Source of the DNA: a candidate division KSB1 bacterium
Lineage (GTDB): Bacteria; Zhuqueibacterota; JdFR-76; DREG01
DNA length: 5,125 nucleotides
Reading direction: 5' to 3'
Assembly (NCBI GenBank): GCA_022566355.1
Contig: JADFJB010000191.1
Location: 1-5,125 of the forward strand
The position numbers and the translations under genes are program-made. Positions 1 to 5,125 of this stretch are shown piece by piece (the stretch's first letter is position 1; each line of letters begins with the position of its first letter). The notes below the pieces were generated by a model. The model was not told where the DNA came from. It did not search any database and saw nothing but the letters and a program-made list of their open reading frames with translations.

Positions 1-1881
1 TATGGCAAAACCCATTTGATTGAATACCTCAGAAAAGGAGAGATTGAGAGAGATATAACAACCACACATGGAATAGAGCGCAGTCAGATCAAAATTCCCT
101 ATAAAGACAAGGATATCCGCCTCAATATATGGGATCTTGGCGGGCAGGAATTTATGCGCAGCACACACCAGTTTTTTTTCTCGGAGCGAACCCTGTACGT
201 ATTGGTTACACTTGCCCGCAGGGAACGAAATGAGCTCAATCATTGGCTCAAGCTGGCCAATCAGTTAGGGAACAAAGCGCCGGTTCTGGTGGTCATTAAT
301 AAAATAGACCTGGATCCACACGATCTGGATCGAAAAAGCCTTGAGCGCGATTACCCGAATATCATTGGCTTTGTCCGCACCAGTATCCATGATTGTGAGG
401 ATACTAAAGCCGTTGATTCCATCGATCTTCTAAAAAAGAAAATAACATCAATCGTAAGTGATAAGAAACTAATGCCGGGTGTCTTTGAACAGCGCCCGCG
501 TGAGTGGTTTACGGTTAAAGAACAATTGGAGAAGCTGGAAGCGGAAGGGACTGATTTTATCACCTACCAGGAATATGAAGATCTCGAATTTATCAAAGAC
601 CTTCCCGCAGAGGAGCGTAAAAGCAACCTGAAACTGCTCAGTATGATTGGCGCAGTGGTCAGCTATGTGGATGACCCGCGGCTGATCGATACCAATGTGA
701 TCAATCCGCAATGGATCATGGATGGCGTCTATGCCATCATTAATGACCCCATTGTGAAAGATAAAAATAAAGGCCGCCTGGATATTAATGATCTGGAACG
801 CATTCTTCCCGGTGATCGATTTCCAAAACCGAGGCATGTTTTCCTTTTAAACCTCATGCAAAAATTCAATCTTTGCTATGGGGCAAAAGACCAACAGGAT
901 ATTTATTTCATTCCGGATCTTTTTGTCGACATAGAGCCCGATTTTGAATGGGATAGCAAGAAATCCATGCATTTTCGCTACAACTATGACGATTTCCCAC
1001 CGGATGCATTTATCACCCGGTTTATTGTCGAAATGCACCTGGACATCCTGGCTGATAATCGATGGCGCAGTGGTGTGCTAATTTCCAATGGTTCATGCCG
1101 GGCAAAAGTCTACCAGACTTTTCGCAAGAACTATATTCATGTTGAAGTAAGTGGAACAAAAGGCGAGAGCCGCAGCTATCTCTATGCCATCCGGGAAACC
1201 TTTCGCAGGCTCCATGAGCCATTTCCGGAGATGACAATCAAGCAGGAGGTGCTCTATAAAGAACATTGGTTGGACTATTTACAACTCATTAATCGGGAAG
1301 AAAAAAACAAACCAATGTACCACGATGAGTTAGATGAGGATCTTCCTGTTACCGAAATCCTGAATGGCTATTCCACACCAACAGATCGGCAGGGGACGCA
1401 AAAAAACATCAAAATATTTCTGGCCTCTTCCGCAGAACTTAAGGCAGACAGAGAGCAATTTGAAATTTTCATTAACCGAGAGAATCAGCGGCTCTACGAA
1501 GAAGGTATTTTCTTAAAACTGGAACTTTGGGAAAATTTCATCGATGCGATGTCAAAGACCCGGTTACAAGATGAATACAATAATGTAGTGAAGCAATCAG
1601 ATATCTTTGTAAGCCTGTTCTTTACCAAAGTGGGTAAGTACACGGCAGAGGAATTTGAAACAGCCTTTGGCCAATTTAAAAAAACAGGGAAGCCTTTGGT
1701 TTATACCTACTTTAAAGATGCTCCAATAAATACAGAAGAAATAACAGATGAAATTAAAAGCCTGTTAGATTTCAGGAAAAAACTAGATGACTTGGGGCAT
1801 TTTAGAACGATCTACAAAAATATTGCTGATTTGAAGTTTCAATTCAGAAACCAACTTGAGAGGGTATTGCCTAAGTTGTAA
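1..1881 (+). CDS. ROCO-family protein (Roc GTPase-COR) with C-terminal TIR-like domain, 5' end outside the window
   Basis: Residues are counted from the first codon in the window (Tyr1); the frame is open from base 1, so the gene starts upstream. GKT at 2-4 is the tail of a P-loop. TTTHGIE (20-26) fits switch I, DLGGQE (45-50) is G3, NKID (100-103) is G4 and TSI (127-129) is G5. This set is typical of Roc GTPases. A COR domain follows (about 165-445), with NPQW at 235-238 before DGVYAII and FIPDLF at 303-308. After a polar linker, about 470-610 is TIR-like: IFLASSAELKADR (472-484), LELWENF, SDIFVSLFF, then GKYTAEEFETA (545-555). ROCO proteins dimerise through COR and couple GTP turnover to output; bacterial ones usually carry N-terminal LRRs, which would lie left of the window. 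TIR-like tails often cleave NAD or signal, so an immune or stress receptor is inferred. Three TAA codons in tandem end the frame. A TTG at 16 is not the start, because it would remove the P-loop. Confidence 0.88.
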   Translation, partial: YGKTHLIEYLRKGEIERDITTTHGIERSQIKIPYKDKDIRLNIWDLGGQEFMRSTHQFFFSERTLYVLVTLARRERNELNHWLKLANQLGNKAPVLVVINKIDLDPHDLDRKSLERDYPNIIGFVRTSIHDCEDTKAVDSIDLLKKKITSIVSDKKLMPGVFEQRPREWFTVKEQLEKLEAEGTDFITYQEYEDLEFIKDLPAEERKSNLKLLSMIGAVVSYVDDPRLIDTNVINPQWIMDGVYAIINDPIVKDKNKGRLDINDLERILPGDRFPKPRHVFLLNLMQKFNLCYGAKDQQDIYFIPDLFVDIEPDFEWDSKKSMHFRYNYDDFPPDAFITRFIVEMHLDILADNRWRSGVLISNGSCRAKVYQTFRKNYIHVEVSGTKGESRSYLYAIRETFRRLHEPFPEMTIKQEVLYKEHWLDYLQLINREEKNKPMYHDELDEDLPVTEILNGYSTPTDRQGTQKNIKIFLASSAELKADREQFEIFINRENQRLYEEGIFLKLELWENFIDAMSKTRLQDEYNNVVKQSDIFVSLFFTKVGKYTAEEFETAFGQFKKTGKPLVYTYFKDAPINTEEITDEIKSLLDFRKKLDDLGHFRTIYKNIADLKFQFRNQLERVLPKL

Positions 1882-1892
1882 TAATAAAACCC

Positions 1893-1914
1893 TATAGTCT
1901 TCATTGAAACTATA
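1893..1914. other. Short A/T-rich hairpin after the ROCO gene
   Basis: TATAGT (1893-1898) pairs with ACTATA (1909-1914). TTC (1900-1902) pairs with GAA (1906-1908), leaving a bulged C and a three-base loop. No T-run follows on the + strand, so it is a poor intrinsic terminator for the ROCO gene. On the - strand it is followed by TTTTATTATT, but no gene enters from that side. It may be a weak 3'-end stem or chance in AT-rich DNA. Confidence 0.3.
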
Positions 1915-1927
1915 AGAAAATTGCTTC

Positions 1928-2272
1928 ATGATGACCCAATCCGAAGAGCTATTTCATCAAATTGTCAATGAAGTACCTGGCGCCGTTGCAGGGAAAATGT
2001 TTGGTGCATCCTGCATTAAAACCATGAATGGAAAAGCAGTTGCCATTTTATGGCAAGATAGTATGCTGTTCAAACTGGATGAAAAAACCCGGCTGGAAGC
2101 ACTAAAGCTGGATGGTTCAAGCATGGCTTCGCATCTCTATGCTCCTGACAAGCCTATGAAAGGATGGGTTTCTTTACCCTTTAAACATTCCGGCAAATGG
2201 GCTGATTTTACTAGAAAAGCAGTTGCATTTGTAATGACATTGGAAAGAAACAGTAAGGCTGACAACAAATAA
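1928..2272 (+). CDS. TfoX N-terminal-domain protein
   Basis: The 114-residue product matches the TfoX/Sxy N-terminal domain along its whole length. Features seen are GKMFGASCIK (22-31) where the family has its R/K-MFG motif, AILWQDSMLFKL (39-50), and PMKGWVSLP (76-84) followed by an aromatic-rich helix with W91 and F94. Sxy/TfoX in gamma-proteobacteria co-activates competence genes with CRP. Single-domain versions like this, without the C-terminal TfoX domain, are frequent elsewhere and have no assigned role, so competence should not be inferred. The start could be either of two adjacent ATGs (1928 or 1931); no convincing Shine-Dalgarno sequence precedes them. The last residues (ADNK) and the TAA stop lie inside the attC-like repeat that follows, as in integron cassettes. 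The gene has no functional link with its neighbours. Confidence 0.82.
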   Translation: MMTQSEELFHQIVNEVPGAVAGKMFGASCIKTMNGKAVAILWQDSMLFKLDEKTRLEALKLDGSSMASHLYAPDKPMKGWVSLPFKHSGKWADFTRKAVAFVMTLERNSKADNK

Positions 2273-2309
2273 ACCGCATTAAAACGGGCGTTTATTCAAA
2301 CCGTTAGCT
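2258..2309 (+). repeat. attC-like structured repeat A
   Basis: The outer arms GCTGAC (2259-2264) and GTTAGC (2303-2308) pair over six positions, one of them G-T. Unpaired spacers follow, then an inner stem AATAAAC (2268-2274) with GTTTATT (2290-2296), continued by GC/GC after one bulged base. This layout of R''/R' arms, unpaired spacer, inner stem and extrahelical base is that of integron attC sites folded as single strands. GTTAGCT is close to the R' consensus GTTRRRY but lacks one purine. The TfoX-like stop codon lies inside, and the methyltransferase ATG begins 14 bases after the right end. It shares the block TAAACCGCAT and the ending ACCGTT with repeat B near 4411. Confidence 0.5.
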
Positions 2310-2323
2310 GAAATACAACCAAT

Positions 2324-3049
2324 ATGAAAAGGGTCAAATCAAAAATTAATGTTTTCAATGAAGAAACTCTCAACTATGTTCAAAAATTTATTACAAATAA
2401 GGATTTACGAATTCTTGAGGTTGGCTTTGGTTCTGGTGATCTCGGATATGAGCTACTAAAAACTGGTATAGCCCTCACCGCGTTGGATACAGATGCAAAA
2501 GCAGTTGAATTAGCTATAAAAAAAGGTGTGCCTGCCAAGCACCTTGATTTTTTATCATTTAAAGACGATCCGTTTGACATCATCCTATTTACGCGCTCAC
2601 TTCATCACATTCACAATCTTAAAAAAACTTTGCATCATACAAAATTATTACTGAAAAAAGGGGGTAAACTAATCATTGAAGATTTTGATCGTGAAATGGT
2701 GGATCTAAATACAACACGATGGTATTATGATACGATTTCAATCCTTTCCGCAATCATTCGGGAAGAGAAGTTTTCAGAATATATCAAAGATCCCCTTAAA
2801 GCATGGCAAGAAGATCATTCTCACGAACCACCGTTGCATTCGGGCAAGGAAATGATTAAAGAAATTGAGGAAAACTTTGGGGTAATCAAGATAGAGCGAA
2901 ATGCATACTTATACCGATCAATATGCAGCCGTTTGAAAGATGATGAAACTGGATATCATATCACGAAAAGGATATTTGAAATAGAAAATGGGTTGATAGC
3001 AGAAAGTTTTATTTTGCCCAATGGTTTGCGGATTGTGGCTGAAAATTGA
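2324..3049 (+). CDS. Class I SAM-dependent methyltransferase
   Basis: The 241-residue protein has a Rossmann-type methyltransferase core. Motif I is ILEVGFGSG (30-38). An acidic end of strand 2, ALDTD (53-57), would bind the SAM ribose. FDIILFTRSLHHIHNL (84-99) is the motif IV region, and LLKKGGKLIIEDFD (109-122) is the post-motif strand. This pattern fits Methyltransf_11/25-type small-molecule methylases. The C-terminal 120 residues (WYYDTISILSAIIREE onward) are a helical and beta extension that probably shapes the acceptor site. The substrate cannot be named. The ATG has no Shine-Dalgarno sequence and sits just after attC-like repeat A. The gene is AT-richer than the ROCO gene's Roc-COR part and has no metabolic partner nearby. 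It ends in TGA and is followed by a possible weaker attC-like element. Confidence 0.85.
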   Translation: MKRVKSKINVFNEETLNYVQKFITNKDLRILEVGFGSGDLGYELLKTGIALTALDTDAKAVELAIKKGVPAKHLDFLSFKDDPFDIILFTRSLHHIHNLKKTLHHTKLLLKKGGKLIIEDFDREMVDLNTTRWYYDTISILSAIIREEKFSEYIKDPLKAWQEDHSHEPPLHSGKEMIKEIEENFGVIKIERNAYLYRSICSRLKDDETGYHITKRIFEIENGLIAESFILPNGLRIVAEN

Positions 3050-3058
3050 AACTACTTC

Positions 3059-3113
3059 GGCTAACAATAGATGTAAAACATAGGACTGAATTGCAATACA
3101 AAAGGTGTTGGAT
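3059..3113 (+). other. Possible divergent attC-like site C
   Basis: CTAAC (3061-3065) can pair with GTTGG (3107-3111), one pair being T-G. GTTGGAT (3107-3113) matches the integron R' consensus GTTRRRY exactly, and GGCTAAC (3059-3065) matches R'' except at one position. The span of 55 bases and its place just after the methyltransferase stop fit an attC. The interior shows only short pairing such as TGTA with TACA, and it does not share the TAAACCGCAT block of repeats A and B. The call is therefore weak. Confidence 0.3.
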
Positions 3114-3166
3114 TTTGGAAAGTCCGCCAAGTAATATTAAAATTATAAATCGATCTTGACTCATTT

Positions 3167-3174
3167 AAAAGGAG
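3167..3174 (+). promoter_or_regulatory. Shine-Dalgarno that selects a TTG start
   Basis: AAAAGGAG lies seven bases before TTG 3182. With the signal peptide encoded immediately downstream, this makes TTG the best start even though an ATG occurs at codon 25. The methyltransferase and GNAT genes lack a comparable site. Confidence 0.6.
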
Positions 3175-3181
3175 CAATAAA

Positions 3182-3649
3182 TTGAAAAAGGGAGCTATTA
3201 TATTTCTATTATTTACCACTTATTATAACTGTTCTTTGGCACAAATAGAAATTATGGAAAAGTTTGACCTGGGAGAATTTAGTGTCGGGTTTAAGTACGA
3301 AACGCTGACAGATTATTCCAGAACATATGGAGATGGTTACAGATCGATACAACTGTTTATTTGGTATCCCGCAGGGGAGAAATCAATAACACCGCTTCAG
3401 TATGGCGAATATTTTTTGCTAAACGATCTAAAAAGTCAAGCATTTGAATTAGATACTGCAAACAAAAAGACAAGAATAGATTCCTTGTTACGACAAGAAA
3501 TTAAGAGACTGAACAAGCTAAAAAAAAATGACGTTAAATTATCAAAATATAAAAATTTAAAAACGATTGCGCAGAGAGGGGTTCCTGTCTCGCAAAAATC
3601 CTTTCCCCTACTCCTATTTGCGCCGGGAGGTAATACGTCCTATAATTGA
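3182..3649 (+). pseudogene. N-terminal remnant of a secreted alpha/beta hydrolase
   Basis: The 155-residue product starts with a signal peptide: MKK, a hydrophobic stretch at 5-16, and a likely cut at SLA|Q (20/21). No lipobox fits. YRSIQLFIWYPAGE (53-66) and FPLLLFAPGG (141-150) match the opening strands and the oxyanion-hole turn of the alpha/beta hydrolase fold, in the style of PAF-acetylhydrolase or dienelactone hydrolase-like enzymes. Reading then stops five residues later (NTSYN, TGA), before any GxSxG nucleophile elbow, Asp or His, so it cannot be a complete enzyme. No continuation of the fold appears in the following 155 bases; a short open stretch in another frame (about 3648-3707) does not resemble it. 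A deletion or early truncation is inferred. Alternatively it is a short secreted protein of unknown use, but the sequence ends mid-fold. It has an unusual TTG start with a good ribosome site. Confidence 0.6.
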
Positions 3650-3727
3650 TATAAATAATGAAAAAGCTAAGAGAATCGATAAAATAAGAATTGAATTGAT
3701 AGAATAAAAAACGTCCTGTCAACAACA

Positions 3728-3785
3728 GCTATGCGATAAATGCTCCCCTAATCGTTCGCACTACTCATAGCCATACCATTAGCAG
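3728..3785 (+). other. Structured element before the GNAT gene, possible attC-like site D
   Basis: GCTA (3728-3731) pairs with TAGC (3768-3771), and TGCGA (3732-3736) pairs with TCGCA (3756-3760). This leaves a one-sided bulge of seven bases and a 19-base loop. The right flank CATACCATTAGCAG (3772-3785) resembles CAAACCGTTAGCTG at the end of repeat A. Both lie a short distance before an ATG without a Shine-Dalgarno sequence. The outer left arm expected of an attC is not clear, so this may be a degenerate site or an unrelated stem. Confidence 0.3.
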
Positions 3786-3804
3786 CAAGCAGATAAAACA
3801 TATC

Positions 3805-4425
3805 ATGAAAAATTGGATAGACCAGCCCTTAAACTTAATTGGGGAAATAATTAACCTGATCTCTCTAGAGAAAGAACACATTATCGATCTTGAAAAATTA
3901 GCGAAAGACAAAAGAATTTGGCAGCACTATACAATGGATTTAACCAACTCTGAAAAATTTATTTCAGTTTTTAATGAGGCAATAATGGAGCGGGAAAAAG
4001 GAACTCAATTCCCGTTTGTGATTTATCACAAACTGGAGAACAGAATTATTGGCAGCACGAGATTCCTGGATATACAAGAAAACCACCGCAAATTAGAAAT
4101 TGGCTGGACCTGGTTACATCCTGACTATTGGGGCACAGCGATAAATTTGGAATGTAAATTATTGCTGCTGACATTCTGCTTTGAGACCTTAAAAACAACT
4201 CGAATCCAATTTAAAACAGATGAAAATAATTTGCGTTCAAGAAGAGCCATTGAAAAAGTTGGCGGCCGCTTTGAAGGCATTTTACGACATGATATGTTAA
4301 GAGATAATGGCACAAATAGAAATTCTGCTTGTTACGGTCTTATTGACAAAGAATGGGTATATACCAGGAAAAAAATAATGAACCCTATCAAAATAAGAAA
4401 AAAGCCAACTGCTAACAAACTATAA
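3805..4425 (+). CDS. GNAT-family N-acetyltransferase, RimJ/RimL type
   Basis: This 206-residue protein would transfer an acetyl group from acetyl-CoA to an amine. KLENRIIGSTRFLDI (76-90) is the central strand pair. EIGWTWLHPDYWGTAIN (98-114) covers strand 4 and the pyrophosphate loop, with WGTAIN where many relatives have WGxGxN. NNLRSRRAIEKVGGRFEGILRH (141-162) is the conserved Asn-Ser-Ile-Glu-Lys-x-Gly segment of the RimL branch, followed by the last strands with an aromatic (CYGLIDKEW). The acceptor is unknown: ribosomal protein N-termini, small amines or an antibiotic are all possible. The last 20 residues are basic and lie outside the fold; the final ones (TANKL) are encoded by attC-like repeat B. 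The ATG has no Shine-Dalgarno sequence. The next gene is convergent. Confidence 0.87.
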   Translation: MKNWIDQPLNLIGEIINLISLEKEHIIDLEKLAKDKRIWQHYTMDLTNSEKFISVFNEAIMEREKGTQFPFVIYHKLENRIIGSTRFLDIQENHRKLEIGWTWLHPDYWGTAINLECKLLLLTFCFETLKTTRIQFKTDENNLRSRRAIEKVGGRFEGILRHDMLRDNGTNRNSACYGLIDKEWVYTRKKIMNPIKIRKKPTANKL

Positions 4426-4457
4426 ACCGCATATAAACGTGGTTTACACTCACCGTT
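4411..4457 (+). repeat. attC-like structured repeat B
   Basis: The inner stem TAAACCGC (4423-4430) pairs with GTGGTTTA (4439-4446) over eight positions, one of them G-T, around an eight-base loop. The outer arms are GCTAAC (4411-4416) and GTTGAA (4454-4459 on extension), where AAC/GTT plus one wobble pair form. The GNAT stop TAA is the first triplet of the inner stem. It shares ACAAA, TAAACCGCAT, TAAA, CG-GG, TTTA and ACCGTT in the same order with repeat A (2258-2309). No T-run follows the stem, so a recombination-site reading fits better than a terminator, although it lies between convergent genes. Confidence 0.5.
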
Positions 4458-4479
4458 GAAAAATAAAAATGAGGGAGAC

Positions 4480-4701
4480 CTAAGCCGTTACTGGTTCCTG
4501 CGCTTGTTCTTGTTTTTTCTTCTCATTCGAGGCTTTTATAATGATCTTTATTCCGACTGCAACCAAGATAAGCGGCCAAAAATTACTGAGAATTTCACTA
4601 AAATCAATAATATAAAGATTCTCCAATAAAAATAAAACACCAATGCTAACCAACAAAATACCCCCGAATAACCTTCCAGACTTTTTGAATTTCTTGCTCA
4701 T
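4480..4701 (-). CDS. Small LiaI/LiaF-like two-helix membrane protein
   Basis: The 73-residue product has a basic N-terminus (MSKKFKKSGR), a first hydrophobic helix (about 11-32, FGGILLVSIGVLFLLENL), a short loop with D33 and E36, and a second helix starting at NFWPLILVAVG (40-50). It ends in a Lys/Glu/Gln-rich tail. The GGxLLxxGxxxLLxN pattern followed by xxWPLxLxxxG is the signature of the LiaI-LiaF-like transmembrane region seen in envelope-stress and small membrane proteins. Here it stands alone, without the C-terminal LiaF domain. A role in envelope sensing is only a guess from the family. CTCCT at 4709-4713 gives AGGAG on the coding strand, seven bases before the ATG. The stop is TAG. 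It is convergent with the GNAT gene. Confidence 0.75.
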   Translation of the reverse strand: MSKKFKKSGRLFGGILLVSIGVLFLLENLYIIDFSEILSNFWPLILVAVGIKIIIKASNEKKKQEQAQEPVTA

Positions 4702-4707
4702 ATTATT

Positions 4708-4714
4708 GCTCCTG
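4708..4714 (-). promoter_or_regulatory. Shine-Dalgarno of the LiaF-like gene
   Basis: On the - strand CAGGAGC precedes the ATG with a seven-base spacer. The string AGGAGCAATAA is identical to the one before the hydrolase remnant (3170-3180). Both may reflect the host's usual ribosome site, in contrast to the two genes that follow attC-like elements without one. Confidence 0.55.
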
Positions 4715-4846
4715 ATTGAGTGTGAGTTAAAAATAAAGGTGTGATTTTAGATCAGACGATTAAATTTTAAAAAATGTTTACGGTAAATTCCCAAAGTTGA
4801 TTCATGAATTGATATTATTTTATTTTATGAAGGTTTTATTAGATGA

Positions 4847-5086
4847 ATGAAAAAAAGAAATCGACTGGACGAAGGAGATTCGAGTGACGCTGTACTACCC
4901 AACGGGTATTTACCTAAGGGCCGCCGGCTTCCCTGGTTTGTGTTATTAAGTTTTTGCTTGCTATCGGTAATGAATTTTGTTAATTTTGGTATGGCCATTA
5001 GCTGTAAAACAAATTGGGAGGAGCAAGTAGGAAGAAATGAAATGATCCTACAAAGTTTCTCTGAACCTTTCTTAAATATAGGATAA
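4847..5086 (+). CDS. Doubtful small ORF with one hydrophobic segment
   Basis: I do not recognise this 79-residue reading frame. It has a charged N-terminus (MKKRNRLDEGD), a predicted membrane helix at about 29-50 (PWFVLLSFCLLSVMNFVNFGMA) and a polar tail with NWEEQ. No strong Shine-Dalgarno sequence fits ATG 4847; AAGG at about 4830 is better placed for ATG 4843, whose frame stops after 14 codons. A third frame is open across 4851-4946 and also has gene-like codons, and a run of seven A residues (4850-4856) separates the frames. It may be a real small membrane protein, the wrong frame, or a frameshifted remnant. Confidence 0.35.
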   Translation: MKKRNRLDEGDSSDAVLPNGYLPKGRRLPWFVLLSFCLLSVMNFVNFGMAISCKTNWEEQVGRNEMILQSFSEPFLNIG

Positions 5087-5125
5087 AAATTAGTGAATAA
5101 TGCATTTGAAAACCTGGGAATTATT

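Follow-up and report, generated by a model that had tools for sequence, protein, structure and literature searches.

What are two related repeats that each enclose the stop codon of the gene in front of them, and do they bound DNA that was once mobile? The question is raised by a stretch of 5,125 nucleotides from a candidate division KSB1 bacterium (GenBank assembly GCA_022566355.1, contig JADFJB010000191.1). This stretch, called the window here, is the whole of contig C191, one of the 213 that make up a draft genome of 4.62 Mb. An earlier note, made from the letters alone, had read the two repeats (A and B) as attC-like recombination sites and the DNA between them as one or more gene cassettes. 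We conclude, with a probability of about 0.72, that A and B are gene-cassette recombination sites of an integron-like system found in Bacteroidota and in some lineages close to them, and that the window is the remnant of an array left without its recombinase.

Two attC-like sites in the window

Both repeats were found where the earlier note had placed them, with their common blocks in one register (GCTrACAA-x4-TAAACCGCATnnAAACG-stem-CCGTT). Inclusion of the outer arms extends A to 2257-2309 and B to 4410-4461, both on the + strand. Site A comprises R'' (GGCTGAC, 2257-2263), an inner arm starting with TAAACCGC (2270-2277) and R' (GTTAGCT, 2303-2309); its crossover is predicted between G2303 and T2304. 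The corresponding parts of site B are R'' TGCTAAC (4410-4416), the inner arm from TAAACCGC (4423-4430) and R' GTTGAAA (4455-4461). Site A thus ends in GAC/GTT and site B in AAC/GTT. Each repeat indeed contains the stop codon of the gene upstream, the TAA of TAAACC ending a TfoX_N-like open reading frame (ORF) in A (2270-2272) and a GNAT ORF in B (4423-4425). The proposed fold, an inner stem flanked by R''/R'-like arms, holds for A, the outer arms of which pair, and only in part for B, where TGCTAAC and GTTGAAA hardly do so. In an integron array such weak pairing in B is expected, since its tail would be part of the unit that follows.

The motif TAAACCGCATNNAAACG occurs without mismatch at two places only in the draft genome, namely A and B. 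With up to three mismatches it is at background (188 matches, compared with 205 for the reversed pattern). The search for more copies which the earlier note had proposed therefore yields no genome-wide spread, and an interspersed repeat was rejected. A scan of the window at the Rfam gathering thresholds gave no match, and comparison of its DNA with plasmids returned a distant match to the GNAT gene only.

Two covariance models were applied. Model R1 is small and home-made (it is not that of IntegronFinder) and was built from 17 attC sites of class 1 type and of the window's phylum. It ranks A first and in the right register, but at 5.2 bits (E 3), which is background. The attC model check proposed earlier thus fails for classical sites; R1 also misses most of the Bacteroidota sites described below. 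Model R2 was built from 22 repeats of other organisms, A and B excluded. It scores A at 53.3 bits (E 2e-12 in the window, 1.9e-9 in the genome) and B at 49.1 bits (E 3e-11 and 2.5e-8), while the next match in the window reaches 11.6 bits. With E-values of the order of 1e-12 and 1e-11 in the window, and correspondingly low ones in the whole genome, chance is excluded for both. A home-made pairing scan for attC was dropped as too unspecific.

Over 59 genomes around that of the window, R2 matches are few: besides A and B, the window's genome has two weaker ones, and there are few others. The first weaker match (38 bits; G000:C168:2700-2754, - strand; L002 ~1487-1541) lies 3' of a malic enzyme gene; it has no GTT end, and its palindrome with a T run resembles a terminator. 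The second (L219; G000:C175:5230-5281, - strand) scores 27.9 bits.

A family of sites at gene ends in Bacteroidota

To which family do these sites belong? The pattern ACAAN{2,6}TAAACCGCATNNAAACG was found at 27 loci in 84,980 species genomes, with most of the loci in Bacteroidota (Polaribacter, Maribacter, Muriicola, Aquimarina, Fulvivirga and metagenome-assembled genomes (MAGs) of Flavobacteriales). These share a complete site, which consists of YAAC, six bases, TAAACCGC, ATTAAAAC, the complement of the inner arm, about eight bases and GTTR. Scattered matches in other phyla do not have the second half. One Polaribacter assembly holds four copies that are identical up to GTTG and then diverge, three of them at contig ends.

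R2 detects between 1 and 32 sites in each of the 16 repeat-bearing genomes, and many of these form same-strand rows. The sites are mostly 50-90 bases long. The inner L''/L' helix, which lies between unpaired spacers, is paired in 83% of cells across the family, and the middles vary in length. The ends are conserved as AAC (R'') and GTT (R') in 80 of 89 sites. A same-strand ORF stops within -120 to +40 bases of R'' at 69 of the 89 sites, compared with 17% of random positions. In locus L197, from a Flavobacteriales MAG, seven sites on one strand separate genes 3' of a 277-aa tyrosine recombinase. Comparable rows were seen elsewhere. A record filed as viral (L184, IMGVR_UViG_3300033388_003553) carries a cassette array of about ten R2 sites on one strand; within the 12.9 kb covered, no ORF for a recombinase was seen. 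The complete plasmid p2 of Flammeovirga kamogawensis (L262) has five one-strand R2 sites separating genes for hypothetical and domain of unknown function (DUF) proteins.

A position behind stop codons would equally suit transcription terminators or repetitive extragenic palindromic (REP)-like hairpins at gene ends, with no recombination involved, and the terminator-like relative behind the malic enzyme gene fits such an account. We regard it as highly improbable. The conserved GTTR beyond the hairpin, the complementary cassette ends and the attI (see the next section) are features that no terminator needs, and the window's genome contains two exact copies only.

Predicted crossover, cassette ends and attI

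If recombination occurs at G^TT, the bases behind this point belong to the next cassette, and each R'' is expected to be complementary to the tail of the site before it, not to that of its own site. Among 49 neighbouring pairs, the complementarity score of R'' is 2.64 of 4 with the previous tail and 1.67 with its own. Random tails give 1.66 (standard deviation 0.14), and none of 5000 draws reaches 2.64. With the window excluded, 19 pairs match perfectly in the predicted direction against 2, and random tails of the same locus give at most 14. A true IntI array (L108) shows the same behaviour of its cassette ends. Computation therefore places the predicted crossover between the G and the TT of R'.

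The same rule can be followed to the head of the arrays. In L197 the ends match perfectly in five successive cassettes. Its first site begins with AGCTAAC and demands GTTAGCT, which is present directly behind the stop codon of the recombinase (7 of 7 bases). In L203 the attI and the tail match as in L197, over nine bases, and the start of the cassette is repeated behind its attC; this repeat lies at a contig end, where the assembly may have produced it. Six of nine recombinases are followed by a perfect hairpin of 7-13 bp and then GTT, compared with 1.4% of random stretches. The Bacteroidota platform thus has a putative attI beside the recombinase (L197, L203, and the hairpin with GTT in six of nine), which the window does not.

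The recombinase at the head of the arrays

Where contigs are long enough, the order is recombinase, attI-like hairpin, G^TT and cassettes. The recombinase heads the array in L196, L197 and L203. In five further genomes (L198 to L202) and in L240 (G030, from the window's phylum) its gene lies 0.2-2.8 kb from the downstream contig end, where a repeat array would be expected to interrupt the assembly.

These proteins match Phage_integrase and Phage_int_SAM_4. Their top family score is to NF040815 (XerA-type, 'site-specific tyrosine recombinase/integron integrase') or to TIGR02249; the latter match is below cut-off and in two pieces, the first of which ends near position 180. Between two catalytic motifs, ten of the recombinases have 60-67 residues (mostly 60), compared with 102 in the IntI measured and 68 in most Xer proteins. 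The IntI-specific insertion is absent from them. In the tree, the array-associated proteins form a group (Shimodaira-Hasegawa-like approximate likelihood ratio test, SH-aLRT, 87) outside the IntI clade (99) and the XerC/D clade (99). Among solved structures, XerA and IntI4 come closest, IntI4 being matched in two stretches. IntI was found over cut-off in none of the 16 repeat-bearing genomes. We infer that it is this recombinase which moves the cassettes.

The likeness to XerA, and the presence of Xer recombinases in the window's genome, raise the question whether the sites could be XerC/XerD (dif-like) modules. dif sites measure about 28 bases and have two 11-base arms. In contrast, the present sites have four arms and variable middles, and most extend over 50-90 bases; the crossover at G^TT is one-sided, and an attI lies beside a dedicated recombinase. 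There is very little chance that a dif-like origin is correct.

The window as a probable decaying array

In this section we return to the window and its genes. The TfoX_N-like ORF upstream of A (1928-2272, + strand) matches Pfam TfoX_N weakly and below cut-off (E 0.00095). Behind it, the presumed cassette segment extends on the + strand from the crossover in A to that in B (2304-4455). Its ends are complementary, with the tail GTTAGCT at A and R'' TGCTAAC at B agreeing in six of seven bases. The segment begins with a class I S-adenosylmethionine-dependent methyltransferase of 241 aa, the ORF of which is intact (2324-3049, +). A candidate decayed site, C, follows 3' of its stop (3059-3113, +; 6.8 bits with R2 and 3.3 bits with R1). 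Its R'', GGCTAAC, is complementary to the tail of A, and its score alone is not significant. Next comes a 155-aa ORF fragment with a signal-like start (3182-3649, +), which had been called a hydrolase remnant; Pfam and NCBIfam give no match, and this identity was not confirmed. A second candidate decayed site, D (3717-3784, +; 11.6 bits with R2, E 0.33), is the third-best R2 match in the window. Its tail, ATTAGCA, is complementary to R'' of B (TGCTAAC), and the window has TTAGCA at no other place on its + strand. The GNAT acetyltransferase (206 aa, 3805-4425, +; Acetyltransf_3, E 6.6e-20) and site B complete the order. Beyond the array, and outside the present finding, a small LiaI/LiaF-like membrane protein (4480-4701, - strand) faces its end.

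The complementary ends fit a cassette origin of the interval between A and B; its division into several cassettes relies on C and D, which are candidates. This arrangement suggests that the array once had three cassettes, now decayed, with the methyltransferase, the hydrolase-like remnant and the GNAT gene.

Is a recombinase available in the same genome? No IntI was found there over the curated cut-off, only Xer-type and other tyrosine recombinases. The intact intI gene sought by the earlier note is therefore missing, as is the array-associated recombinase, and we consider the window an integrase-less remnant, a decaying array without its recombinase. A different, Bacteroidota-type site in such a remnant would account both for the failure of R1 and for the missing intI.

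The surrounding genomes offer another explanation, in which canonical IntI, in trans or before its loss, mobilised A and B as normal variants of attC, the Bacteroidota recombinase is a bystander and the window is a plain cluster of attC sites lacking integron integrases (CALIN). The window's phylum is indeed unusually rich in integrons, with IntI over the curated cut-off in 35 of 82 genomes, many at contig ends. A genome of the same family (G002:C88) has an intact IntI with an attC-like site behind it, and the window's own genome retains decayed IntI fragments at C15:12416-12713 (G000; L016 1400-1700), with broken frames and the ending RGVRSPVD. IntI1 has moreover recombined one attC of a Polaribacter phage (PMC9892861). 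Nevertheless this explanation appears unlikely to us: the 16 repeat-bearing genomes lack IntI over cut-off, their arrays start at the other recombinase and its attI, and an attC model trained on class 1 misses most of their sites. An array of 41-base repeats (CGATACNTTTCGCTTAAAAAGCAAGCGAAACACTCGGGATG) directly adjoins an IntI gene (L111 3276-4668; G015:C16).

The origin of the contig is a separate matter. A MAG contig (JACZTA010000002.1) is 98.5% identical to window positions 1-3078 and ends inside candidate site C. As regards presence or absence in relatives, it is the single near-identical record, and nothing in it matches window positions 3079-5125. Its MAG, named Bacteroidetes bacterium, holds ten R2 matches and, in L203, the recombinase, attI, first cassette and attC. 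The two records are not simply the same strain, as the 12 kb beside the copy match the window's genome over 91 bases at most. The tetranucleotide composition of C191 fits no single origin over another. This 5-kb contig may thus come from horizontal transfer or from mis-binning; either origin leaves the nature of the sites unaffected.

A probable cassette system without canonical IntI

The attC-like reading of A and B is supported by their match to a large family of sites which lie at gene ends in cassette arrays and cross over at G^TT, but they are not of the canonical IntI kind. For the system as a whole, computation directly yields the site family, its arrays, the position at gene ends, the G^TT crossover, the complementarity of the ends and the recombinase with attI at the array heads.

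In intact loci, the tyrosine recombinase gene precedes an attI-like site (mostly a perfect hairpin and GTT), and cassettes follow one after another, all reading the same way. A cassette usually holds a single gene, and its site, about 50-90 bases long, lies 3' of the stop codon. The mechanism would be single-stranded, as in integrons. One strand of the site would fold, with R''/R' as the outer arm, unpaired spacers and L''/L' as the inner stem. The recombinase would then cut between G and TT, and the circular cassette would be joined at attI or at another site.

Several observations weigh against this picture. IntI1 recombined a Polaribacter phage site which is probably of this family, so that at least some of its members are usable by IntI (PMC9892861). 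The window's genome does not contain the array-associated recombinase, and some genomes rich in sites (Maribacter G086, Muriicola G095) gave no recombinase above the threshold applied. C and D are weak candidates. Covariation within the site is not significant against shuffles, as expected because the core is invariant and the outer arms belong to two different cassettes. Finally, the repeats used to train R2 were chosen by a core pattern that A and B themselves had supplied, which makes the scores alone partly circular; the tests of gene ends, cassette-end complementarity, attI and recombinase are free of this circularity.

We lean, with somewhat less assurance than for the sites themselves, towards a broader proposal. 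Bacteroidota would have a second kind of integron, with a XerA/IntI-like recombinase that has no IntI-specific domain and with all parts in one direction; the window would be its remnant, and searches trained on known attC and IntI would let it escape. The system appears little described and common in marine Bacteroidota. No description of the recombinase-attI-array arrangement in Bacteroidota was found in the literature searched, which did not extend to subscription papers and preprints. If the recombinase works, cassette recombination either does not need the IntI-specific domain or has evolved by a second route. Marine and soil Bacteroidota would then hold a large, overlooked stock of mobile cassettes, and the system would lend itself to a natural test of the path from Xer-like enzymes to integron integrases.

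Comparison with known systems

XerA resolves chromosome dimers. Recombinases of this type (NF040815; PDB 4a8e, 5hxy) are the best family and structure matches of the array recombinase, which differs in heading cassette arrays with an attI.

A CALIN is defined by the lack of an integrase and by two or more attC sites with less than 4 kb between them (PMC9668308). If A and B are taken as attC-type, the window falls under this definition, as it has two sites about 2.1 kb apart and no integrase. It differs from the CALIN described (PMC9024848, PMC9668308) in that its sites are of the Bacteroidota type.

Two sites of the Polaribacter phage P12002L, next to methyltransferase genes, are of R2 type, with scores of 53.7 and 44.5 bits. 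From their position and the gene content, these are very likely the published attC pair, of which attC2 recombined with attI1 by IntI1 and attC1 did not (PMC9892861). For one attC of a Polaribacter phage, probably a member of the present family, recombination of the folded bottom strand by an integron integrase is thereby on record. Unlike the arrays presented here, no recombinase is described for this phage.

The closest comparison is with the integrons of IntI, both class 1 and sedentary chromosomal. Bacteroidota integrons are listed in reviews (PMC8618304), and the single one that IntegronFinder 2.0 reported as complete within Bacteroidetes proper is from Salinibacter (PMC9024848). Published accounts treat the IntI-specific domain both as a defining feature and as a requirement for cassette recombination (PMC9668308, PMC8138268); the insertion is called essential for integron function (PMC8138268) and IntI-specific (PMC9668308). 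The two systems share cassettes of one gene in one direction, R''/L''/L'/R' sites, the G^TT crossover, complementary cassette ends and an attI heading the array. In contrast to IntI, the Bacteroidota recombinase has no IntI-specific insertion and falls outside the IntI clade. It reads in the direction of the cassettes, with attI behind its stop codon, and its sites are short, A+T-rich and mostly missed by a model trained on class 1.

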